DNA from: a virus
IMG/VR virus record: IMGVR_UViG_3300044647_002172
Coordinates: 1-21,074 of that record
DNA length: 21,074 bases
Direction: 5' to 3' (one strand)
Shown here: in pieces, positions 109-17,816 of the stretch
Layout: each line of letters opens with the position of its first letter
Numbering within the stretch: the stretch's first letter is position 1
Translations under genes and position numbers: made by a program
The notes under the pieces: generated by a model
The model's database searches: none
Seen by the model: the letters and a program-made list of their open reading frames with translations, nothing else
Told to the model about the DNA's origin: nothing

Positions 109-1263
109 TTATTTAGCAAACATTACCGCCGCCAATTTATCCATTTCGGATTGTTGATTATTGGGGCTAAATGTGCCGCTATTTGTGCTGCTTAAATTGA
201 TGTTGCTTTGCTTTTTTAGGTGCATTGCTAATCTCTTGTTTGCAGCATCGTTTACATACTTCTGAGCGATTTTGCCTTCGTTTTGAAGCAGAAAAAGATC
301 CTTCGTCATCTGCTTTGTGTTTAGAGTACCATCGTCATTTACCCATCTTTGGGCAAAAATTACATTGGCATCTAGATTGTTTTCGGCGAATTCACGCAGT
401 TGTTCTGTAACTATTTGTCTTTCTTCTTGGGAAGGTGTATAAGCAACATTAAAATCCACTCCTTCGTCTTTTACTGTTGCGCTAAACCCATCAAACGAAT
501 TGACAACTTCGTTGGCAGAAACGAAAAAGTCATTAATATATTTCTTTTGCGCCTCTATTTCTTCTTGTGTAAAGGTACTTTGTTTTGGAGAGATTTCAGG
601 CAAAACGAGTTGGCTTTTGATTTTCTCCAATTCGGGCTTTGCAAGTTTGGCTTCAATAACCAAACGCTTCTCTATCTCATTAACCTTGCTCTCCCAATTC
701 GCTACCCTTTGTTCGTATTCTGAATCAAGTTCATCGTAATTTTGTTCCGGTTTTTCGGGGATGTTGAACTTCTCCTTAAACAGGAACTCAATTTCGTCTT
801 GCTCTAATTCCTTGTTCTTTTGATACATACTCAGCTTGATAATCTCAGCGGCTGTATTTGCATCTTTGATGTCGGCATTTGCCAACTTCTCTATTTTCTT
901 TTTTTCTTGCAAGAAAGCCAACAAGTCATCCTCTTTCTGCTCTTTTGCGTATTCATAATACTTCCGGCTTTCTTCGTTTTCAAACTTTAATGAAGAACTT
1001 TCTTTAGACTTTTTAAGTTGCTCAATTTCCGATGCAGCCGTGTCCCAGTCATCAAATCCTAGTTTTTGCTTTAGGTATTCGTTAGCATCATAAATTTCTT
1101 CATCAGCCTCTTCTTGCTGTTGCTCTTGTTCTTGTTGGGGTTGGAATTGTTCGTTAGATCCGGTTTCTTTTACTTCCGGCTCTGCCCAATTTTGTTCTGA
1201 AAACGGATTGGATAGATTCGCTTGGTCTAGTGTGGCTTGTTCTGTTGTGGCTTGTTCCGACAT
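109..1263 (-). CDS. Scaffold-like head assembly protein
   Basis: This 384-residue protein is very rich in Glu, Gln and Lys. It has a Gln/Glu-rich low-complexity stretch at about residues 38-57, long charged helices with coiled-coil character at about 75-130 and 175-220, and a polar Asn/Ser/Gln-rich tail ending near KLAAVMFAK. No enzyme motif is visible. An acidic, helical, Gln-rich protein placed between the portal region and the presumed capsid gene is typical of phage scaffolding proteins, which template the procapsid and then leave it. The name rests on composition and gene order, not on a recognised domain. The region from the start codon to codon 5 (MSEQA) is nearly repeated in the leader at 11188-11256, so translation of this gene could be under antisense control. 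Confidence 0.6.
   Translation of the reverse strand: MSEQATTEQATLDQANLSNPFSEQNWAEPEVKETGSNEQFQPQQEQEQQQEEADEEIYDANEYLKQKLGFDDWDTAASEIEQLKKSKESSSLKFENEESRKYYEYAKEQKEDDLLAFLQEKKKIEKLANADIKDANTAAEIIKLSMYQKNKELEQDEIEFLFKEKFNIPEKPEQNYDELDSEYEQRVANWESKVNEIEKRLVIEAKLAKPELEKIKSQLVLPEISPKQSTFTQEEIEAQKKYINDFFVSANEVVNSFDGFSATVKDEGVDFNVAYTPSQEERQIVTEQLREFAENNLDANVIFAQRWVNDDGTLNTKQMTKDLFLLQNEGKIAQKYVNDAANKRLAMHLKKQSNINLSSTNSGTFSPNNQQSEMDKLAAVMFAK
1249..1263. repeat. Start region of scaffold-like gene, repeated at 11188-11202
   Basis: On the plus strand these 15 bases (GGCTTGTTCCGACAT) match 11188-11202 at 14 of 15 positions. On the minus strand they are the ATG and the next four codons of the scaffold-like gene. 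A plus-strand RNA carrying 11188-11202 would pair with this mRNA over 15 bases with one G-U and no mismatch. Confidence 0.6.
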
Positions 1264-1650: not shown

Positions 1651-2004
1651 TTATGATATTTTAGTTAGCATTACCAATAACTTAGATACATCATCATCAC
1701 AAGTAATTTTTATGTATCTGCCCACAACATTGAATTTGATAATACCGCCATCTGCTACACCAGTATTAAGACTTGTTGAAGTTGCACCATTTGTTCTTAA
1801 TCCGTATGCATCTACAAAATTTGCCGCAGAAACTGCGCTCCCATCACTAACCCCTTGTATCGCTCCGCTATCTATTGTACTTTGAAAAGATGCCGCTGCC
1901 CCAATAGGCTGTACTAGGCAATAGTCATAATTACTTACATCAATTACTACTGTATTACTATTTGCATTTGCTTCTTCAGCTAAATCTAAATATTGTGCTA
2001 ACAT
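1651..2004 (-). CDS. Hypothetical small head-module protein
   Basis: A 117-residue protein rich in Ala, Ser, Val, Asp and Asn, with alternating hydrophobic stretches (NTVVIDVSNYDYCLVQPIG, IIKFNVVGRYIKITCDDDVS) that suggest a beta-sandwich or jelly-roll-like fold. No signal peptide, membrane segment or enzyme motif is visible. It stops one base before the next gene's start, so it is surely co-transcribed with its neighbours. The beta-rich character and the position among head genes make a minor capsid or decoration role plausible, but this is inference only. Confidence 0.7.
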   Translation of the reverse strand: MLAQYLDLAEEANANSNTVVIDVSNYDYCLVQPIGAAASFQSTIDSGAIQGVSDGSAVSAANFVDAYGLRTNGATSTSLNTGVADGGIIKFNVVGRYIKITCDDDVSKLLVMLTKIS

Positions 2005-2455: not shown

Positions 2456-4867
2456 TTATTGTACTACTTGTTCTTCTTGGACTTGTTCTTCGGGCATTTG
2501 CTCTTCTTGCGGCATTTCTTCTTGCCCCTCTTCCATTCCCTCTTGTTGCTGCATTTGAGCCTCTTGCATACCCTGAGCCATAGCTGCCTCGTTGCCCATG
2601 TTTTCCGCAAATAAAGGTAACGCTATATTTTGTAATACCTCTTGCTCTAAGGCTTTCAATTCTTGTGGGACTTGCAGCCCCTTCTGATAAATCCCAAACA
2701 GCCCTGCAATCATCGTTTTTTTCAAGTCATTGGCAGTCTGCATATCGCTTATCTGCTTCTTGATTGCCAAGTCCATTTCCAAAGTCTTCCGCTTCTCTGC
2801 TTCTGCTGCTTGCGCTGCTGCTATCTGCCCTTGGATTGTCTGCTGTTGATTCATTTGAGCCTGAGCCTGTTGGGTTTCAAGCATCTTCTTCATCGAAATC
2901 CTGTAATATTCTTCCGCTAATTTAACATCTTCCTTTGCAATTCTCAAAATCTTGAATGTATCAATGTACATCGCAAATTGAGGGTTAGAAGCCAAGGCTT
3001 GGTTCATTTTAGCGTCAAGCATCATTATCTCCTGACCTGTTGGCAAAAGCCTTACATCGGTATTGAATATCCGTGTTTGTACATCCTCTTGCTTCAATAA
3101 GTGCCTATATGCCTTTGCCCCAAATGTCACCGATTTGTGAAGTAGGCAGGAGATTTTCCTTGCCGTTTGCTTCATGCACTCCACATAGGCATCGTACATA
3201 TAGTCCGTGGCATTGGCGGCTACTTGTTGGGCAGTTTCAATGTTACCTGTGGTTACCCTTGGCGTTGCTGCCTGTGCGCTCAAATTTGGATCTTCCCCTA
3301 ATTCGTCTTTTAAAACAGAATAGTGGAACTGATATAATTGAATAAGACCTTGCATTTGGGGAAGGAAGCCGGAGTTAGCCAACTCAGTAACAGGTACTGG
3401 AATTTGGTTTCCTTCGTCATCCTTGCCCCTATAATACAGCGAACCCGTCTGATCGTAGAGTTTCATAACATCTATCGTCTTATTGGCATCGCCTAACCCA
3501 TAGTCTATTGATTGCAGGGCATCCCAATTTATCAAAGCCCCGGTGGGTCGCATTTTAGCTACCAACTGCTGCATCTTCAACCTTGCCAAAATCATTTGAT
3601 CGGAAGGCTCTTCTATCTTCTCAGGGATAGCCATGTTTGTCAGGCTATAGTTCTGATACATATAGAAAGAGTAAGAAAACTCCGCATTGCCCGATTCCCT
3701 TGGGTCTTGTGGGCGAATCATATTAGTCTTCAATCCCCACTCCAAAAGAACGCCGATAGTCCTTACATATACGCCTCGGTAGATATTATATTTGGTATCC
3801 TCTATTAACTCTTCGTTATCGCCCATTTTGGGCTGTCTGCCCTTCTTAATTATCGTGCTTTTATTAGCCTTAGTAGTAACTACGGTGTATGGTTCGCTAT
3901 CAACTGACTTTATTTCAAAGTCAAGCACATCAATATTCCATTCATCGTAAGGACGGAACATGGTAACATTCCAATTCACATCCCACCGAAGTTTATCGTT
4001 GTATTGAAAGTCTTTTGCAGTTGCGGCTATATTCCAAATCTCTTCTTCGGTTAATTTGCCTCCGAACTCTTTGCCGTATTGTCTGCGGAGTTCGCTAATT
4101 TTTAATGCCTTTACTTGTCCTCTCCAAGATGTATCACGGAGGTCATTATGTTCTGAATAGCTATATATAGCATTTTCGGGCTTCACCCAATCAACATGAA
4201 TTACTCCCTCTTTGTCCATCCAAGTATAAGTGCCTACAAATCCACACTCAGCACTATCGTGAAGCATTTTATCTTTTAAAACATCGAACCACCCGTTGCT
4301 TTGCAGCACATCGTTGATTCCCATTTCATAAAGAATTTCTTCTGGAAGCCTTTGGAATTGTTTAACCCACAGGTCAAGCTCCTCCTTAGTTTCAGGGATT
4401 TCTTGCTGAGGCATAACCTGCTCACCGCTTATCTCTTGCAGCTTCTGTAAGTATTCACGATTGGCAATATAAAACTCCAATTCGTTGTACTCGTCAATCT
4501 TTTGTTTTTGGGAAAGGTTATCTACGGCTTGTATCTGTATCTTTTCGCTGCGTTGCATCCAACGACCTACCAAGCCTGATATAATTCTATTTACAATCCT
4601 AATTGATTGCCAGTTAATGTTAGCATAATTTGTTTTGCCATTGAAATCCAAAAGGTCTTGAAACTTAGCCATGTTCACCCTGCCATTTGCAGAGTTACGA
4701 TTAAGTTTGTACCTGTTGTTTCTTGTCCAATAGTAAGAACTTATGCCGCCGCCTATTGTTGAATCTATGTATTTGGAAACTTTGATACCGTACTCATCAG
4801 TTGATTTATCTTTTATTGACAAATCATTTAATTGAAATTCCTTCAATATAGTTCCGGTATTTTGCAT
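2456..4867 (-). CDS. Portal protein
   Basis: This 803-residue protein lies directly downstream of TerL, where the portal is usually found, and has the size of the large portals of Bacteroidetes podovirus-like phages. The N-terminal half contains the typical mix of helices around an Arg/Trp-rich region (VNRIISGLVGRWMQRSEKI near 93-111) and WV-P-E-x-I/Y repeats. The middle has long helices and the sequence TPRVTTGNIETAQQVAANAT, which resembles the portal stem/crown transition. The last ~120 residues are Gln/Glu-rich, with AQAQMNQQQ and a strongly acidic MPEEQVQEEQVVQ end, as in portal tunnel/barrel extensions. The portal forms the dodecameric vertex through which DNA is packaged. A TATATTTG promoter element lies just upstream. 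Confidence 0.8.
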   Translation of the reverse strand: MQNTGTILKEFQLNDLSIKDKSTDEYGIKVSKYIDSTIGGGISSYYWTRNNRYKLNRNSANGRVNMAKFQDLLDFNGKTNYANINWQSIRIVNRIISGLVGRWMQRSEKIQIQAVDNLSQKQKIDEYNELEFYIANREYLQKLQEISGEQVMPQQEIPETKEELDLWVKQFQRLPEEILYEMGINDVLQSNGWFDVLKDKMLHDSAECGFVGTYTWMDKEGVIHVDWVKPENAIYSYSEHNDLRDTSWRGQVKALKISELRRQYGKEFGGKLTEEEIWNIAATAKDFQYNDKLRWDVNWNVTMFRPYDEWNIDVLDFEIKSVDSEPYTVVTTKANKSTIIKKGRQPKMGDNEELIEDTKYNIYRGVYVRTIGVLLEWGLKTNMIRPQDPRESGNAEFSYSFYMYQNYSLTNMAIPEKIEEPSDQMILARLKMQQLVAKMRPTGALINWDALQSIDYGLGDANKTIDVMKLYDQTGSLYYRGKDDEGNQIPVPVTELANSGFLPQMQGLIQLYQFHYSVLKDELGEDPNLSAQAATPRVTTGNIETAQQVAANATDYMYDAYVECMKQTARKISCLLHKSVTFGAKAYRHLLKQEDVQTRIFNTDVRLLPTGQEIMMLDAKMNQALASNPQFAMYIDTFKILRIAKEDVKLAEEYYRISMKKMLETQQAQAQMNQQQTIQGQIAAAQAAEAEKRKTLEMDLAIKKQISDMQTANDLKKTMIAGLFGIYQKGLQVPQELKALEQEVLQNIALPLFAENMGNEAAMAQGMQEAQMQQQEGMEEGQEEMPQEEQMPEEQVQEEQVVQ

Positions 4868-4928: not shown

Positions 4929-7004
4929 TTAAGGAGCAACTGAATACCCTAACGGATATACTTTAACTAGAGGCACGGTAGGGCTTTTTTCTACAGGGAT
5001 TGGCTCTAAACTGCTCACCAAAGTAATCATTGCGCTTACCGTTCTGTCCGAAGGGGTACGCTTATATGGTCTAAATTTCAGCAAATCTTCTAGCAACTCC
5101 TCGTAATAGATTTTATCAGAATGGTGTTCAGTATAGGTAATCATTGCATCATTCTGTTTGGTCAGGGCAAACTCGGTGGTGGGGAAACCAAAGTGCCTAT
5201 CTACCCTGTCCTTCTTCAGTTTGACCGGGTCTATCGAGTTTTTCGGGAATCGCCCCAAATACCCCACCCTGCCCCTATTTTTGAAATAGGTATAGTAATC
5301 GTCTGACACAAATTCAAAGTAAACCGGGAAGCTCATATACTCGGCGCAAAGTAGAATCTGATTGTACATATCTTCCTTTTCGTTTGGTCTGCCGTATATG
5401 TGTCCTGCAAATATGCCCGTATTCTCAGGGTCATTTATATCAAATTTGATAAAATACCACCCAGATAACTTTGAGCCATACTCCTTGCCCCCTTGTGTAT
5501 TAGAATATCCATCCACTCCTATTACGCCAACCCCTGCCCTTGTAGGCATTCTCAGGTTATTGTTCATCTTGAACTTGTTGTCCTGATCCTTTGGGGGTAG
5601 CGTTAATACCTTCCAACAAAGGTCTGTTTTAGTCGGATCAATATCCCTCCACTTTACTTTCTGCGTATCTATATCCCTATAAAAATGCAAGTACCTGAAT
5701 CTGTTTATAGGGTTTTGCTTTAGGTAGGCTATTTGCTTGTTTATGTTCTGCGTATTAAATATACAGTCCTCCCCATCTACGCTAAAAGCCTCCTCAATAG
5801 TCCTTGCTTCTTTTTTTATACGCTTTGATAGGGATCGAAGGTTGTGCTTTACTGACTCCCTATCCGCTAATATTTCTTTTATTGTCTTTTCTATGTCCGG
5901 GAATCCATATAGATCAAAATTCTTTGCCCGGTCGGCAGACATAAAAAACCGATATAGCCCCGAAGGAGTCCTGCCGTTTTCCTGCCTATTTAATTGGTCG
6001 CTATCATTCCAAAGGCTTTTTGCAGCTTCCTGCACCCCTTCTTTTTCCGAATCCAATTTTTCTACCGTGCTACTGTAAAGAGCCTTGCCTATTATTCGCC
6101 CTTCGTCATCAAGCAAACAATATCGTATAACTTCGTGCCTGTCGTATATATTTACTTCTACCGTCTTCCCCCATTCGTCAGCGAAATATCTGTGCAGTTT
6201 TTGACCATCATAATGTATGGTATCGGCACTACCCCAGTCAATCATTGACCCCAACTCCTCTTTATCTAAGTTGTCCTCTGCCTTCTTCCCTCTTACGTTA
6301 GTTTTTTGAAATCTAATCTCTGACTTGGGCGTTACGCCAAGGCTCATGTCGTATTCTGGACGGAAAAATTTGGGTAGCTTTTTGAACGGAGAAATAACCG
6401 CCTTGGCAAATACTTTTTTAGCGTCATTACCCGTCTTACTTTGGATGCCACCATTAGTCATCCTAGTTCTAGTAATGTATTCGTAAAGGAACAGACCGCC
6501 ACGGAAAGTTTTACCGAAGCGGCGTTTTGTTACCTCAAGCATCCCCATACAGTTGGGGTCTTCGATAACATATTGCAGGAAGTAGAAGTATTCAAGGTCA
6601 GGTTGACGGAATCGGGGATAGCCAATGTCAATCTGAAACCATTGCATATACATATAATGGCTTCCGGTGATGTAGGTTGGCTTACCGTTGTTCATAAACC
6701 AATGCCCATTCAGCCGCCTGTCCCACTCTTGCCTTTTGTAGTCCTCTAATTGCTCATCGTAGAAATCTGGGTCATCTTCTTTTCTTGCCTTTTCGTATTT
6801 CTCTTCTTTTTTTACAACCTCCTTATACCAAGAAGGGAGAGGTACTCTCTCCCAATATTGTTCAGATATATTGCTAGACCTTGTGTATATGCCTCTGAAC
6901 TCAATCTTTTTTGTGGCAACATTATAGACATACCCTTCGGGTGGTATAGAGCAATCTAACCCTTGAATGTTGATGATTGTGCCTCCATCAATTTGATTAT
7001 ACAT
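4929..7004 (-). CDS. terL: Terminase large subunit (TerL)
   Basis: A 691-residue packaging motor with both expected domains. ATPase domain: a Walker A-like loop TKRRFGKTF at 159-167, hydrophobic Walker B RYFADEWGK at 272-280 with D276 and E277, and a coupling motif ALYSSTVEK near 308-315. Nuclease domain (RNase H fold): first Asp in GVIGVDGYSN (D498), an acidic YFEFVSDDYY stretch at about 562-571, and a late Asp in PSDRTVSAMI (D653), the usual three-site arrangement. It pumps DNA into the procapsid through the portal and cuts the concatemer. The N-terminal ~150 residues are Tyr/Trp-rich. The ATG overlaps the end of the preceding gene by 8 bases, indicating coupled translation. Confidence 0.9.
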   Translation of the reverse strand: MYNQIDGGTIINIQGLDCSIPPEGYVYNVATKKIEFRGIYTRSSNISEQYWERVPLPSWYKEVVKKEEKYEKARKEDDPDFYDEQLEDYKRQEWDRRLNGHWFMNNGKPTYITGSHYMYMQWFQIDIGYPRFRQPDLEYFYFLQYVIEDPNCMGMLEVTKRRFGKTFRGGLFLYEYITRTRMTNGGIQSKTGNDAKKVFAKAVISPFKKLPKFFRPEYDMSLGVTPKSEIRFQKTNVRGKKAEDNLDKEELGSMIDWGSADTIHYDGQKLHRYFADEWGKTVEVNIYDRHEVIRYCLLDDEGRIIGKALYSSTVEKLDSEKEGVQEAAKSLWNDSDQLNRQENGRTPSGLYRFFMSADRAKNFDLYGFPDIEKTIKEILADRESVKHNLRSLSKRIKKEARTIEEAFSVDGEDCIFNTQNINKQIAYLKQNPINRFRYLHFYRDIDTQKVKWRDIDPTKTDLCWKVLTLPPKDQDNKFKMNNNLRMPTRAGVGVIGVDGYSNTQGGKEYGSKLSGWYFIKFDINDPENTGIFAGHIYGRPNEKEDMYNQILLCAEYMSFPVYFEFVSDDYYTYFKNRGRVGYLGRFPKNSIDPVKLKKDRVDRHFGFPTTEFALTKQNDAMITYTEHHSDKIYYEELLEDLLKFRPYKRTPSDRTVSAMITLVSSLEPIPVEKSPTVPLVKVYPLGYSVAP

Positions 7005-9223: not shown

Positions 9224-10030
9224 ATGGCTAATATAATTAGTGCCACTATTTTTGGAGCAAATGGTAACGATTGGAATGACCCTTCCGGAGTAGAAATGGG
9301 ATTCCCTACTAAAAATGTAGTATTTAAGGGAATTAAGCCTACTCAATATTCAGGAATCATATGTAATTCTCAAATTCAAGTACTCCCAACTGCCCCAAGC
9401 CCAATTCAACAAATTTATTATACTGACGAAATAGTTTCTGATTTAATTACTGCATCTAATTCTTCTGGATTCCCTTCTGTAAATATTGGAAGCCAAATTT
9501 GGATGACAAAAAATTGGGATGGAACAACTTTCCAAAACGGCGATCCAATACCAGAAGTTCAAGATCAGGCAGCTTGGGATGCACTAAGTACTCCTGCGTG
9601 GTGTTATTATGACAACGACTCGGCAAATGGTGCTATTTATGGGAAATTGTACAATTGGTATGCCGTGAATGATATTCGTGGTTTTGCTCCAACAGGTTGG
9701 AAAGTTCCAACATTAAGCAATTTTACTGTTTTGGAAACTAGTCTTGGCGGTTTAATTGGAACAGGTGGGTCTTTAAAAGAAACTGGCTTAACTTATTGGA
9801 TTGCTCCAAATACTGGAGCAACAAATTCGACTGGGTTTTCAGGATATGGTGGAGGATATAGGCAAACTGGTGGTTTTACTGATTTGCAAATTTGGGGTGT
9901 ATGGTGGCTAAACACCGATACGGGAGGTGCAGGTGAAACTTTCAATTTTCGCTACGATTCAAATGACATATTTCAAACTAATTATCCAAAGGAATTTGGG
10001 TTTTCTGTTCGTTTATTAAAAGACATTTAA
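9224..10030 (+). CDS. FISUMP-domain protein with shared N-terminal module (probable virion adhesin)
   Basis: A 268-residue protein in two parts. Residues 1-78 are the same module as the whole of the 10085 gene (about 60% identical, including LPTAPSPIQ). Residues about 86-267 are a FISUMP domain: IGSQIWMTKNW at 88-98, GDPIPEV, WCYYDND, AIYGKLYNWYAVND, PTGWKVPT, then LKETGLTYWIAPNTGATNS and a C-terminal GFSVRL. FISUMP domains have a C-type-lectin-like fold and are often found in surface and phage proteins of Bacteroidetes. The most likely role is a virion decoration or receptor-binding protein, attached through the N-terminal module. The start is fixed by the match to the second copy (MANI.SATI.GAN). 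No reverse transcriptase gene or template repeat of a diversity-generating system is visible here. Confidence 0.8.
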   Translation: MANIISATIFGANGNDWNDPSGVEMGFPTKNVVFKGIKPTQYSGIICNSQIQVLPTAPSPIQQIYYTDEIVSDLITASNSSGFPSVNIGSQIWMTKNWDGTTFQNGDPIPEVQDQAAWDALSTPAWCYYDNDSANGAIYGKLYNWYAVNDIRGFAPTGWKVPTLSNFTVLETSLGGLIGTGGSLKETGLTYWIAPNTGATNSTGFSGYGGGYRQTGGFTDLQIWGVWWLNTDTGGAGETFNFRYDSNDIFQTNYPKEFGFSVRLLKDI

Positions 10031-10084: not shown

Positions 10085-10318
10085 ATGGCAAACATTTTTT
10101 CTGCTACCATTTATGGTGCAAACCAAAATGATTGGGGAAGTGGCGTAGTTATGGGCTTCCCTGCCAGTCAAGTTGTTTTGAGGACCATTCCACCCACCTC
10201 CTATTCGGGTGTGACTTGTGTTACTCAGATTCAACTGCTTCCGACTGCGCCAAGTCCGATTCAGCCTGTGTATTACACAAATGCTGCTATCGGTACTCTG
10301 ATCGCAAGCGGTGCTTAA
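10085..10318 (+). CDS. Stand-alone copy of the N-terminal module (77 aa, probable decoration protein)
   Basis: A 77-residue protein equal in extent to residues 1-78 of the preceding FISUMP protein. Shared blocks are MANI, SATI, GAN, NDW, SGV, MGFP, YSG, QIQ, LPTAPSPIQ and YYT, with one 2-residue gap. It is beta-rich, lacks a signal peptide and contains one Cys that is conserved between the copies. It has its own leader and a terminator directly behind it, which suggests high and separate expression. The natural reading is that the small module is an abundant capsid decoration or tail-tip unit, and the longer gene displays a lectin-like head on the same attachment site. Family not recognised. 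Confidence 0.75.
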   Translation: MANIFSATIYGANQNDWGSGVVMGFPASQVVLRTIPPTSYSGVTCVTQIQLLPTAPSPIQPVYYTNAAIGTLIASGA

Positions 10319-10923: not shown

Positions 10924-11115
10924 ATGGCTAAGGTTAAAGCATCCATCACAGAACAAATAGAAGCCGCATTAGACGGGCGTACTAGGCGTTGGTTATCTTT
11001 TGAAGTTAAAATCCCTGAAACTGAATTAAGCATGAGAATGACAGGTAAAGTGCCTTTCAAAAACGAAGAATTACGGAGAATTGAAAAAAGATTGAAGTTT
11101 AAGTTGGAGTATTAA
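10924..11115 (+). CDS. Small helix-turn-helix (Cro/C1-like) protein
   Basis: A 63-residue basic protein. Residues about 20-60 fit a short helix-turn-helix: RTRRWLSFEVKIPETELSMRM, then TGKVPFKNEELRRIEKRL. The pattern W[LI]..[EK]..IP...LS....GK..F..EE...I...L is common in phage Cro/repressor-type proteins of the XRE kind. It is the first gene after the divergent promoter region, so it may control that region and the early operon. It ends 154 bases before the next gene, with the structured leader between them. Confidence 0.65.
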   Translation: MAKVKASITEQIEAALDGRTRRWLSFEVKIPETELSMRMTGKVPFKNEELRRIEKRLKFKLEY

Positions 11116-11124
11116 AAAACTTCC

Positions 11125-11132
11125 TATCTTTG
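11125..11132 (+). promoter_or_regulatory. Strong -7 promoter element driving the structured leader
   Basis: TATCTTTG is a full TAnnTTTG match. A TTG at 11104-11106, within AAGTTGGAG and about 18 bases upstream, could serve as the -33 element. Transcription would start near 11138-11140, that is within the first arm of the 19-bp inverted repeat. Confidence 0.6.
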
Positions 11133-11134
11133 GC

Positions 11135-11256
11135 TTGCTAAAGAATCTCAATAATGTTCAATTTTCAATATTTACCGATTTTTTAACGGCTTGTTCCGGC
11201 ATGGCGATTTCCTCTCCTCGTATTGGGATTCTTTAGCAACCATGTCGGAACAGGCT
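11135..11256 (+). ncRNA. Structured leader RNA, predicted pseudoknot (A-B-A'-B')
   Basis: Four arms form two helices that cross. A 11135-11153 (TTGCTAAAGAATCTCAATA) pairs with A' 11221-11239 over 19 bp with one G-U. B 11188-11204 (GGCTTGTTCCGGCATGG) pairs with B' 11240-11256 over 17 bp with three G-U and no mismatch. A' and B' abut with no gap, so the helices could stack; the loops are 34 and 16 bases. The G-U pairs keep RNA pairing but break DNA symmetry, which favours an RNA function. No U-tract follows, so it is not a terminator. Because the predicted transcript starts inside A, a short part of that helix may be lost. A structured 5' UTR, a separate small RNA, or a replication-origin element are the main alternatives. 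Confidence 0.6.
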
Positions 11257-11277
11257 CAATATATTGGCTATGTCTAA
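11242..11277 (+). CDS. Possible 11-codon leader peptide (MSEQAQYIGYV)
   Basis: An ATG inside arm B' opens an 11-codon frame that ends at TAA 11275-11277, overlapping the start of the replication gene (ATG 11270) by 8 bases. If the B:B' helix forms, this start would be sealed. Its first five codons (MSEQA) copy the scaffold-like gene's start. It may be a translated leader or only a by-product of the repeat. Confidence 0.2.
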   Translation: MSEQAQYIGYV

Positions 11278-11875
11278 AAATGCCTATTGGTTCAAGCACG
11301 ACTACAACGCCAAAAATGACGAAAAAATCCTTGAATTAAGATCGGAGTTTGGAGCAGAAGGCTACGGTATTTACTGGATGCTAATTGAATCTATGTCCGA
11401 AAATAATTGTGGGGGGCTTAAAGCCACCCTTATAGGGGGGCTATCGCTTGGCTTTGGGGTAGATAAGGGGAGGCTTACTGAAGTAGTTAAATTTTGTATA
11501 ACTGTTGGGTTATTTTTTGAGGAAAAAGGTGTCTATTATTCCCAGAGAGTTCTTGACCATAAGCAGGAGCGTAAGTATTTGTCAGAAATGGGCAAATTAG
11601 GCATGGAAAGGAAGAAATATTTGAAGACAATTTCGGGAGAAAAAAAAGTCCCCCTTAAGCCACCCTTGCAGCCCCCCTTAAGCAATAAGATGTATAGAGT
11701 ACTATTAGATAAAGAGAATACTCTATCTACAGAAAGTTCTATAGTTAGACCTATGGGAGAAAATTCTGAAAAAAACGAAAAATTTGAAAAAAATGGAAAA
11801 GTCAATCACAATTCGGGGGCGGGAGTATCCCTTGGAAAAACTGAAGGAGAAATCGACCCCCCTCTCCCCTTTTAA
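11270..11875 (+). CDS. DUF4373-type (Lin1244/Lin1753 N-terminal) replication protein
   Basis: The 201-residue protein starts MSKNAYWFKHDYNAKNDEKI, then LRSEFGAEGYGIYWMLIESM. This is the DUF4373/Lin1244-Lin1753-like N-terminal domain found in phage and plasmid replication initiators. The tail from about residue 115 is low in structure, with Lys/Pro repeats (PLKPPLQPPLS) and a Lys/Glu/Asn-rich stretch, and serves as a linker. I choose ATG 11270 over the upstream TTG at 11264 because the family begins near here. Long G- and C-runs (G6 near 11411 and 11436, C5-C6 near 11650 and 11677) lie in this gene. Its 3' end overlaps the next gene by 83 bases. It likely helps to load the helicase-primase encoded next. 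Confidence 0.75.
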   Translation: MSKNAYWFKHDYNAKNDEKILELRSEFGAEGYGIYWMLIESMSENNCGGLKATLIGGLSLGFGVDKGRLTEVVKFCITVGLFFEEKGVYYSQRVLDHKQERKYLSEMGKLGMERKKYLKTISGEKKVPLKPPLQPPLSNKMYRVLLDKENTLSTESSIVRPMGENSEKNEKFEKNGKVNHNSGAGVSLGKTEGEIDPPLPF

Positions 11876-12254
11876 CGAAAGGGTTTATTCAGCTTTGTCA
11901 GATGGAGTTTTAATCAGCGATGCCTCTGTGGATCAATTAGAGGCGATTCTAGACACGATCTCTGCCCTTTGTGGGTATCCTATCCAAAAAAATAAAATCG
12001 GGCTTTTAAATGCCTTAAAAACGCATCTTACGCAATTCGGGTTTGCCGAACTGACAGATAAGGAGATAACGCTCGCTTTCCACCTAAATTGTGAGATTGG
12101 GCTAAAATATCCTTCGGGCATGGAGCAGGAAATAATCTACAGCCACTCCCCTGAGCTGTCGGTTATGTACATCGCTAAGGTTTTGTCCATGTACATGAAC
12201 TACAGAAAAATCCTAATAAGAAAATTAGAAAACGATTTAAATGGGTACGAATAA
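11793..12254 (+). CDS. Hypothetical replication-linked protein (153 aa)
   Basis: A mostly helical protein with a Leu-rich middle (VDQLEAILDTISALCGYPIQ, LLNALKTHLTQFGFAELTDK) and a C-terminal pair of helices (SVMYIAKVLSMYMNYRKILI). It lies between the DUF4373 gene, which it overlaps by 83 bases, and the primase-helicase, which it overlaps by 14. That is the usual place of a helicase loader or initiator partner, but no P-loop is visible, so it is not a DnaC-type ATPase. I choose ATG 11793; a TTG 9 bases upstream also opens the frame. Family not recognised; helicase-loader role is positional inference. Confidence 0.65.
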   Translation: MEKSITIRGREYPLEKLKEKSTPLSPFNERVYSALSDGVLISDASVDQLEAILDTISALCGYPIQKNKIGLLNALKTHLTQFGFAELTDKEITLAFHLNCEIGLKYPSGMEQEIIYSHSPELSVMYIAKVLSMYMNYRKILIRKLENDLNGYE

Positions 12255-14292
12255 CTACGAAAATCTGAACGAATTAGAGGGACTCCAGTTTATCCCGGTA
12301 AACGAAAAGAAGATCCCTCAAGTCAAGAATTGGCAGACCGCCATAACCAAATACGACCTGTCTAATTGTTGGGGGGTAGGCTTGGTTTGCGGTACTCCTT
12401 CGGGTAATGTAGAGGTCATTGACATTGACCAAAAGTATTCCTTGGATGGCAAGTTGTTTGAGCAGTATAAGTTGGCGGTAAACGCAGTACAACCTAATCT
12501 CCTAAAGAAACTTGTCGTTCAAAAGACCAAGAACGGGGGGTATCATTTTATCTATCGTTGTGATAAGATTGAGGGGAATATCAAGCTAGCGAACAGACCG
12601 ACTACAGAAGCAGAAAGGACGGACACCTACAATAAGACCTACGAGGCGCAAGTAATTAGTGGGAAGGACGATGCAGAGGCTATTAGGGTGGCTAAAAAAG
12701 CCAAGGAGAACGACACAGTTAGGGTATTGCTGGAAACCCGTGGGTTCGGGGGACAGATAGTCATTGCCCCCTCGCCCGGCTACGAAGTTATATTCGGAGA
12801 TATATGCTCCATTACAGAAATTACTATTGAAGAAAGAGAAACCCTGCATTCTATAGCACGGGAGTTTAATTCAGTATTTGAAGAGATAGTAATTCCAAAG
12901 TCAAACAAAATAGAAAAGACAAAGGGGCTTTCTCCATTTGATGACTATAACGAGAGGGGGGATGTAGTCCAACTATTGCAGAGTTACGGGTGGAAAGTAG
13001 TTGGGAACAAGGGCAACAAGACGATGTTTCTTCGTCCCGGACAGACGAGCGCACAGACATCGGGCAATTACAACCACGAAAAGAATTGGTTTTCGGTGTT
13101 CACTACTTCATCAGAATTTGAGCCACAGAAGGCATACCTGCCATATGCTGTCTTCGCTAAGTTGGAATGCAATGACGATTTTGTTGAAGCATCAAGGCGA
13201 TTGCTTGATATGGGTTACGGAGAGAAGAAGGAAGCCGCTCCCAAAAAAGAATATCAAAGCACAAGGGTAATCCAATCCAGAATTAAGGTAGATGATAACG
13301 ATTTGAGTTTCTTAGCCACCCCCGAAGATTATGATGGCTATATCCAAAGTGTAATTGATGGAACTCTAAAGCAGGGATTGACCACAGGATCGCCAACATT
13401 AGACCAACACTTCAGGTTCAAAGAGGCATCTTTTTTGATGGTAAACGGGATTGATAACGTAGGTAAAACAAAGTTCTTGTGGTGGCTTGAATTGGTTGCC
13501 GCAATGTACCACGACTGGAAATTTCTTATCTTTTCATCCGAAAACAGCATTGGTAGCTGCATGAGAGCCTTGATTCAATACTATTGGGGGAAGCCATTAA
13601 CAGGTAAGGTAAGGTTGAACGACACGGAAATTGCGGAAGCCAAAAAGTTTATAGAATCTCATTTTAAGATTATCAAAGCTCAGGAAGATTTATTTAACTA
13701 CAAGGACATCATAAACATGACAAAGAAGGCAAGGGATAAATACCCCGACCTCAAGTGCTGCATGGTTGACCCATATAACTCGCTCAAAATAGACCTGAGC
13801 GGATTCAGTAAATTATCTACCCACGAATACCATTACGAAGCATTGAGCGAAATGAAGGCATACGGTCAGCAGACCAACTTTGGGTGGATAATTAATCACC
13901 ATGCAGTCACCGCAGCAGCAAGAGCCAAGGACGGGGAAAAGAAGTACCCACTTGCCCCGAATAAAGCCGATACAGAAGGAGGACAAAAAGTAGCAAACAA
14001 GGCAGACGATTTTCTGACCATTCACAGGGTGACTCAGCATCCAACCGATTGGATGGTAACTGAAGTCCATGTGCGTAAAATAAAGGATACCGAAACCGGA
14101 GGCAAGCCAACACCGCTAGAGCAACCCGTAAAGTTTGAAATGTATAGTCAAGGGTGCGGATTTATTGAGCGATTAGAGGATGCAGGACAGCCAATAGACC
14201 CTATTCATTCATGGCACAACAAAAGACAGCCAGTACAACAACAGCTTTCTGCACAGAGAACAGATATAGATTGGAATAAAGAATTTTTTTAA
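12241..14292 (+). CDS. Primase-polymerase / RecA-type helicase fusion
   Basis: A 683-residue fused replication enzyme. The N-terminal AEP primase-polymerase part has the metal-binding motif VIDID (D61, D63), then GGYHF (H102) and GFGGQIVIAPSPGY at about 168-181. A middle segment, 230-328 (SPFDDYNERGDVVQLLQSYG, RPGQ...NWFSVFTTSS), is of the type that links primase and helicase in phage and plasmid proteins. The C-terminal SF4/DnaB-RecA-type ATPase has Walker A GIDNVGKT (403-410), Walker B CCMVD (506-510) and NHH (552-554). It would make primers and unwind DNA at the fork. It overlaps the previous gene by 14 bases. The acidic FF end may bind a partner such as an SSB or polymerase; this last point is speculation. 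Confidence 0.85.
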   Translation: MGTNNYENLNELEGLQFIPVNEKKIPQVKNWQTAITKYDLSNCWGVGLVCGTPSGNVEVIDIDQKYSLDGKLFEQYKLAVNAVQPNLLKKLVVQKTKNGGYHFIYRCDKIEGNIKLANRPTTEAERTDTYNKTYEAQVISGKDDAEAIRVAKKAKENDTVRVLLETRGFGGQIVIAPSPGYEVIFGDICSITEITIEERETLHSIAREFNSVFEEIVIPKSNKIEKTKGLSPFDDYNERGDVVQLLQSYGWKVVGNKGNKTMFLRPGQTSAQTSGNYNHEKNWFSVFTTSSEFEPQKAYLPYAVFAKLECNDDFVEASRRLLDMGYGEKKEAAPKKEYQSTRVIQSRIKVDDNDLSFLATPEDYDGYIQSVIDGTLKQGLTTGSPTLDQHFRFKEASFLMVNGIDNVGKTKFLWWLELVAAMYHDWKFLIFSSENSIGSCMRALIQYYWGKPLTGKVRLNDTEIAEAKKFIESHFKIIKAQEDLFNYKDIINMTKKARDKYPDLKCCMVDPYNSLKIDLSGFSKLSTHEYHYEALSEMKAYGQQTNFGWIINHHAVTAAARAKDGEKKYPLAPNKADTEGGQKVANKADDFLTIHRVTQHPTDWMVTEVHVRKIKDTETGGKPTPLEQPVKFEMYSQGCGFIERLEDAGQPIDPIHSWHNKRQPVQQQLSAQRTDIDWNKEFF

Positions 14293-17497: not shown

Positions 17498-17816
17498 GTT
17501 TACTTCTGAAATGGAAGCAATAGCATTGTGTATAGACGATACCGGGAAGCCCAAAAATATCCCAAAAGATAGATGGCTAAGGAAGGGAAGCCTGTACACT
17601 ATTATCTACGCCACATTGGTAATGCCTCAAGACAGGATTGCATTTTATGTTGCCGAAATAGACCTAACCGAAGACCACCATCCATACCAATACTTTCTTT
17701 CTGATAGATTTGCCTTCTCTGAACAAGGGCTTATAGATGTAGGAGAGCTGATTGATTTTTGTCTTCAAACAAATCACATCGTTGAAAGTTTTCTTGCTGA
17801 AATCCAATCAGCGTAA
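17490..17816 (+). CDS. Hypothetical phage/Bacteroidetes protein (108 aa)
   Basis: A 108-residue protein. The core AIALCIDDTGKPKNIPKDRW, then RKGSLYTIIYATLVM...FYVAEIDL, HHPYQYFLSDRFAF, is a pattern I associate with small conserved proteins of unknown function in Bacteroidetes genomes and phages (CIDD..KP..IP...W...G..Y.I). A small beta-rich fold is likely. ATG 17490 overlaps NinG by 8 bases; ATG 17511 is an alternative start that would skip MCRFTSE. It is the last gene of the plus-strand operon; the terminator at 17973-17999 follows. Confidence 0.65.
   Translation: MCRFTSEMEAIALCIDDTGKPKNIPKDRWLRKGSLYTIIYATLVMPQDRIAFYVAEIDLTEDHHPYQYFLSDRFAFSEQGLIDVGELIDFCLQTNHIVESFLAEIQSA

Follow-up and report, generated by a model that had tools for sequence, protein, structure and literature searches.

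The window, by which we mean the whole stretch of 21,074 nt that was analyzed (virus record IMGVR_UViG_3300044647_002172, positions 1 to 21,074), carries a replication-initiation type gene (rep) that shares an operon with a primase-polymerase/helicase gene. The leader in front of rep contains four arms, A, B, A', and B', that can pair as two interleaved helices, and it is preceded by a Bacteroidota sigma-A-type promoter and a small repressor-like gene (Table 1). A putative coding leader ORF, MFNFQYLPIF, begins with its ATG directly at the end of arm A, fills the A-B spacer, and stops one base 5' of arm B; it is not coupled to rep. Another small ORF near the rep start codon is possibly a chance occurrence. 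Farther upstream, two ORFs (9224-10030 and 10085-10318, plus strand) begin alike, with MANI(I/F)SATI(F/Y)GAN, and a similar ORF (MAQIFAASIYGAN) is present in the phage that carries one of the related leaders described below (L025).

Table 1. Coordinates of the rep leader and its neighboring features in the window and of related leaders elsewhere
Location	Feature	Coordinates	Strand	Remarks
Window	63-aa repressor-like gene	10924..11115	+	phrog_4583, 4.8e-6; just upstream of promoter, not part of the RNA
Window	Bacteroidota sigma-A-type promoter	11104..11132	+	TTG 11104-11106, 18-nt spacer, -7 box TATCTTTG 11125-11132
Window	Arm A (a1-like target copy)	11135..11153	+	5' end of predicted transcript, leader of small ORF
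Window	Small leader ORF (putative coding)	11154..11186	+	33 nt; read from sequence
Window	Arm B	11188..11204	+	5' side of closing stem
Window	Arm A' (candidate antisense segment)	11221..11239	+	Pairs with arm A; complementary also to next start codon in relatives
Window	Arm B'	11240..11256	+	3' side of closing stem; ends 13 nt before rep start codon
Window	Second small ORF, possibly chance	11242..11277	+	ATG at 11242 within B'; overlaps rep start codon
Window	rep, replication-initiation type gene (Lin1244_N, PF14297; phrog_2562)	11270..11875	+	Gene behind leader
Window	Primase-polymerase/helicase gene	12241..14292	+	Same operon as rep
Phage of L127 (L369)	Two leaders	17574-17703 and 5431-5586	-	
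L498	Tandem leader copies	986-1124 and 1808-1948	-	Paralogous gene behind each copy
L030	Leader before Acb2/Tad1 hairpin-domain gene (anti-CBASS type)	2657-3053	+	Downstream of primase operon
L228, Ferruginibacter sp. HRS2-29	Leader before SymE-type toxin gene (PF08845)	552-920	+	A' complementary to its start codon

The two helices were just as an earlier note on this DNA had described them: A and A' form 19 consecutive pairs with one G-U, B and B' form 17 with three G-U, the order along the strand is A-B-A'-B', and A' and B' adjoin without a gap, leaving 16 nt between B and A' and a 35-nt loop in the B-B' stem. They are the two longest perfect Watson-Crick/G-U helices spanning at most 200 nt in the 21-kb window, the next longest having 15 pairs. 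The note had also judged a chance origin very unlikely, and shuffling bore this out. When a 700-nt region was shuffled with its dinucleotides preserved, a helix of at least 17 pairs arose in 3 of 300 shuffles and one of at least 19 pairs in 1 of 300, and among abutting interleaved pairs in 126 kb of shuffled whole-window sequence the highest sum was 21 pairs, compared to the 36 observed. The nested RNA fold was also unusually stable (z of -4.1; 0 of 200 shuffles). The promoter from which the note had transcription start at arm A was likewise found in place: its -7 box, TATCTTTG, lies 18 nt behind a TTG and ends 2 nt before arm A, and the same box lies 1 to 4 nt 5' of arm A in all 24 leaders (24/24). 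In Flavobacterium promoters this box covers -12 to -5 (PMC6847099), which puts the predicted transcript start within arm A, near 11137, and arm A would therefore constitute the 5' end of the message. On the minus strand of the A-B spacer, an AT-rich region, promoter-like T[AG]nnTTTG sequences are frequent by eye.

Related leaders were gathered in several ways. The only close copy, on a 49-kb viral contig, does not differ from the window in this region and is uninformative on covariation. With the primase-polymerase as bait, 29 further relatives of 57 to 72% identity were fetched; six of these have the A-B-A'-B' arrangement with other sequences (L020/L021, L024/L025, L022, and L030), and a covariance model found no such leader in the other 23. 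Blastn of the leaders against phage records returned no homologous leaders. Pattern searches recovered the arrangement in unrelated phages (L127, L283, L388, L495, L496, L498, L497, and L194) and in Ferruginibacter, Flavobacterium, and other genomes (L228, L204, L229, and L530). The yield of these searches varied: the first DNA patterns gave mostly chance hits among the matches listed, a class-wide scan of genomes gave nearly all chance matches, and a pattern that included the start-codon copy (see below) gave 8 true members in 8 matches. The arms are private to each copy, to the point that the phage of L127 (a 45.5-kb contig) has two different leaders with unrelated arms before two different genes. 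In most relatives an ORF, again of putative coding role, begins at most 12 nt after arm A.

These leaders allowed the check on compensatory change that had been set beforehand. Across 18 leaders (that of the window plus 17 taken from other phages and from bacterial genomes), with 11 A-A' and 8 B-B' pairs counted, 97.7% of positions were paired over both helices and 107 cells had changed on both sides. The covariation score was 0.849 compared to 0.172 ± 0.027 in shuffles, and pairing dropped to 38 to 48% in every slid register. Some of the 18 leaders came from a scan that itself required pairing, and the search patterns left several A pairs no room to vary. We also assessed nine leaders that had been picked only by promoter, A, A', and start-codon patterns, to avoid selection on B; in these, 95.8% of B-B' cells pair, with two-sided change at all 8 pairs. 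A covariance model built from nine leaders without the window and from the A-A' helix only (R1, for TTGC-type interleaved leaders of Bacteroidota phages) matched the window leader at 44.2 bits, with an E value of 4.7e-6 that is rough owing to short calibration; the next best match in the 21 kb had an E value of 6.9, and L194 was matched as well (3.1e-5 on the same rough scale). The window thus has the A-B-A'-B' order, both helices covarying, and the -7 box directly before A, as does the R1 family. The interleaved helices in the leader are real and are conserved as structure. The earlier note had taken the G-U pairs as a pointer to RNA, and the strong compensatory change in both helices of homologous leaders speaks in favor of RNA pairing.

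The genes behind the leaders vary: they include Lin1244-type and other replication genes, a GIY-YIG gene (a weak match), an Acb2/Tad1 hairpin-domain gene, AntA, P22_AR_N, and Bro-N antirepressor genes, and a SymE toxin gene. A particular tie between this layout and DUF4373-type genes thus found no support. SymE is under the control of another antisense RNA in other hosts. In one subgroup the leader reaches further, to the next gene. In seven leaders (L127, L283, L228, L388, L495, L496, and L498) A' can pair with the opening codons of the gene behind it in addition to A (P of 0/500), and the genes so targeted encode AntA, P22_AR_N, and Bro-N antirepressors and the SymE toxin. A match of 10 positions among A, A', and the start codon is seen in L127, L283, L228, L495, L498 (both copies), and L530; the search pattern had set part of its core, whereas the variable positions were free. 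In L388 and L496, it is the start codon, not A, that A' matches. The tandem copies of L498 differ identically in A, A', and the start codon (TGCGAAACAA versus TGCATAACAA). We read this three-way match as the mark of a predicted antisense segment whose two targets share its promoter. At the rep start of the window no second target was found (best pairing, P = 0.42), and none was detected at the next gene in L020, L025, L022, L030, or the L369 copy. In leaders of this window type, B' ends about 6 to 17 nt 5' of the next start codon, the distance in the window being 13 nt.

A layout of this kind has precedents, contrary to the earlier supposition that it was undescribed: the same order occurs in c4-2 and C4-type loci. 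At canonical c4-2 loci of Flavobacterium, the order is promoter, a1, leader-ORF ATG, stem, a', stem, T-rich spacer, a2, and gene ATG, and the c4-2 RNA (RF02944, clan CL00128) was present in 25 of 121 sampled Flavobacterium genomes, in up to 8 copies each. One of our leaders, L194, passes the Rfam c4-2 model (47.4 bits; gathering threshold, 41), its B-B' helix being the outer stem of that model, and L497 and L204 match just below the cutoff. The window family shares with c4-2 the promoter-a1-ATG-stem-a'-stem-gene order and the A-A' and B-B' pairing. However, c4-2 has a pair of inner hairpins, the loop of one containing a', where the outer stem of the window holds 16 nt between B and A', and c4-2 has an a2 before the gene, whereas the window lacks a2 and A' adjoins B'. 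The c4-2 model did not match the window leader at E values up to 10. No Rfam family matched the window at its gathering threshold, and at E values up to 10 only miRNA and lncRNA matches appeared, which we took as chance.

The likeness extends to the C4 RNA of phages P1 and P7 (RF01695), which holds back antirepressor synthesis and whose antisense segment and targets are produced from a single promoter (Citron and Schuster 1990, as described in PMC12197685 and PMC5320573). The window family resembles it in having a candidate antisense segment that is made from the promoter of its target and that in relatives can pair with a translation start, and in the putative regulation of a phage switch gene. 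In the window itself the predicted transcript opens with A, to which A' farther along it is complementary over 19 nt; the gene behind is of the Lin1244_N replication type and not an antirepressor, relatives having AntA, P22_AR_N, and Bro-N in that place. C4 differs in that it is gammaproteobacterial, has three stem-loops, undergoes RNase P processing, and targets ant mRNA, and there is no sequence match between it and the window. Because the window has no second target, no inner hairpins, and no T-run after B', we did not file it as C4 or c4-2. The antisense-regulated repY/repZ leaders of IncI/IncB plasmids also combine a leader peptide with a pseudoknot ahead of a gene for replication initiation; in that system, the antisense RNA is transcribed from the other strand, and the pseudoknot has an activating role.

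We consider it probable that the window leader is a divergent C4-type (c4-2-like) riboregulator of a Bacteroidota phage, in which A is the target copy, A' the antisense segment, and B-B' the closing stem. On this view the locus represents phage RNA control of an established kind, in variant form and in a setting that is new for it, the replication genes of a Bacteroidota phage. Transcription would start in arm A, so that A would be the whole 5' leader of the small ORF, and A' would be made as an antisense segment from the same promoter as A. B-B' would close the antisense domain, ending just 5' of the rep start. Pairing of A' with A, whether in cis or in trans by a copy released through termination or processing, may shut off initiation at the small ORF, and the balance between ribosome traffic through that ORF and formation of A-A' and B-B' would set expression of the replication operon, much as C4 RNA acts in P1/P7. 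The most likely action is that A-A' controls ribosome entry at the leader ORF and that B-B' acts as a closing stem beside the rep start. We infer from this arrangement that the leader regulates the rep operon; how rep output would change is likewise something we infer, because folding calculations gave no clear opening or closing of the rep start between states in which A and B are occupied or not.

The absence of a detectable second target in six leaders (the window, L020, L025, L022, L030, and the L369 copy) suggests a different possibility, namely, that A-A' and B-B' either combine into a single long pseudoknot within the 5' untranslated region or exclude each other, and are melted by translation of the leader ORF, with no antisense action in trans, such a switch having been derived after loss of the second target. 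The private arms, two different copies in one phage, and the small ORF, which begins where A ends and fills the A-B spacer, fit this purely cis mode as well. However, the calculated openness of the rep start was independent of state, and a mechanism common with the second-target leaders is simpler than a cis-only one because the promoter, the arms, and the conserved TTGCnAAA start are the same; we regard the cis-only mode as possible but doubtful. Put more broadly, and just as tentatively, the window-type leaders might be a distinct, self-contained RNA switch, a long A-B-A'-B' pseudoknot read by ribosomes on an ORF of 9 to 24 codons, with which Bacteroidota phages gate replication, anti-CBASS (Acb2), and other early genes and that arose from C4-type leaders by loss of the downstream target. 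Intrinsic termination at B-B', with A-A' modulating read-through as in attenuation and the short product serving as a regulatory RNA, would suit the T-rich sequence that follows B' in many relatives (for example, L022, L020, L388, and L496) and in canonical c4-2. In the window, however, we looked for a T-run after B' and it was absent (CAATATATTGGC), the 35-nt loop is long for a terminator, and a terminator scan found none at B-B'. For the window we therefore hold attenuation to be unlikely; in relatives, a terminator at this position is compatible with the C4-type explanation.

Two further readings fare much worse. Arm B has about 16 nt of complementarity, with 1 or 2 G-U pairs, to the start codon region of a late gene (1263-109, minus strand), which beats 60 of 60 shuffled elements when gene starts only are scored and could make arm B an antisense in trans linking early and late genes. 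Equal scores occur elsewhere in the 49-kb genome, though, the pairing was seen in none of the related phages, and the late gene start has repeated GAACAAGCC codons, all of which makes such a link highly improbable. That the inverted repeats act at the DNA level as part of a replication origin, as the earlier note had entertained and as the position of the element before a replication gene might suggest, is hardly credible: no supporting evidence was found, the element lies always directly behind a promoter, and its pairs are kept by G-U as well as Watson-Crick changes. We dropped the origin because the genes behind the element elsewhere are unrelated ones (antirepressor, SymE, Acb2, and GIY-YIG-like genes). 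The protein of the late gene begins MSEQATTEQ, and arm B' resembles the start of that gene (ATGTCGGAACA).

If the C4-type reading is right, antisense control of this type would reach beyond antirepressors and also cover replication initiators, an anti-CBASS gene, and a SymE toxin in Bacteroidota phages and genomes, in which phage RNA control has been little studied. Since the arms are private and interchangeable, as illustrated by the two copies in one phage and by the L498 tandem, specificity and immunity between related phages could be tested by arm swaps. The leaders also differ in the length of the ORF behind arm A. In L127, L283, L388, L496, and L498, an ORF of 52 to 72 codons runs from just after arm A through the whole structure and into the next gene in another frame, compared to only 9 to 24 codons in the window-type leaders; we take the longer ORF to be reminiscent of the icd ORF before ant in P1. 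The contig of L388 additionally carries an Rfam RT-17 RNA (RF03020; 5360-5446, minus strand).
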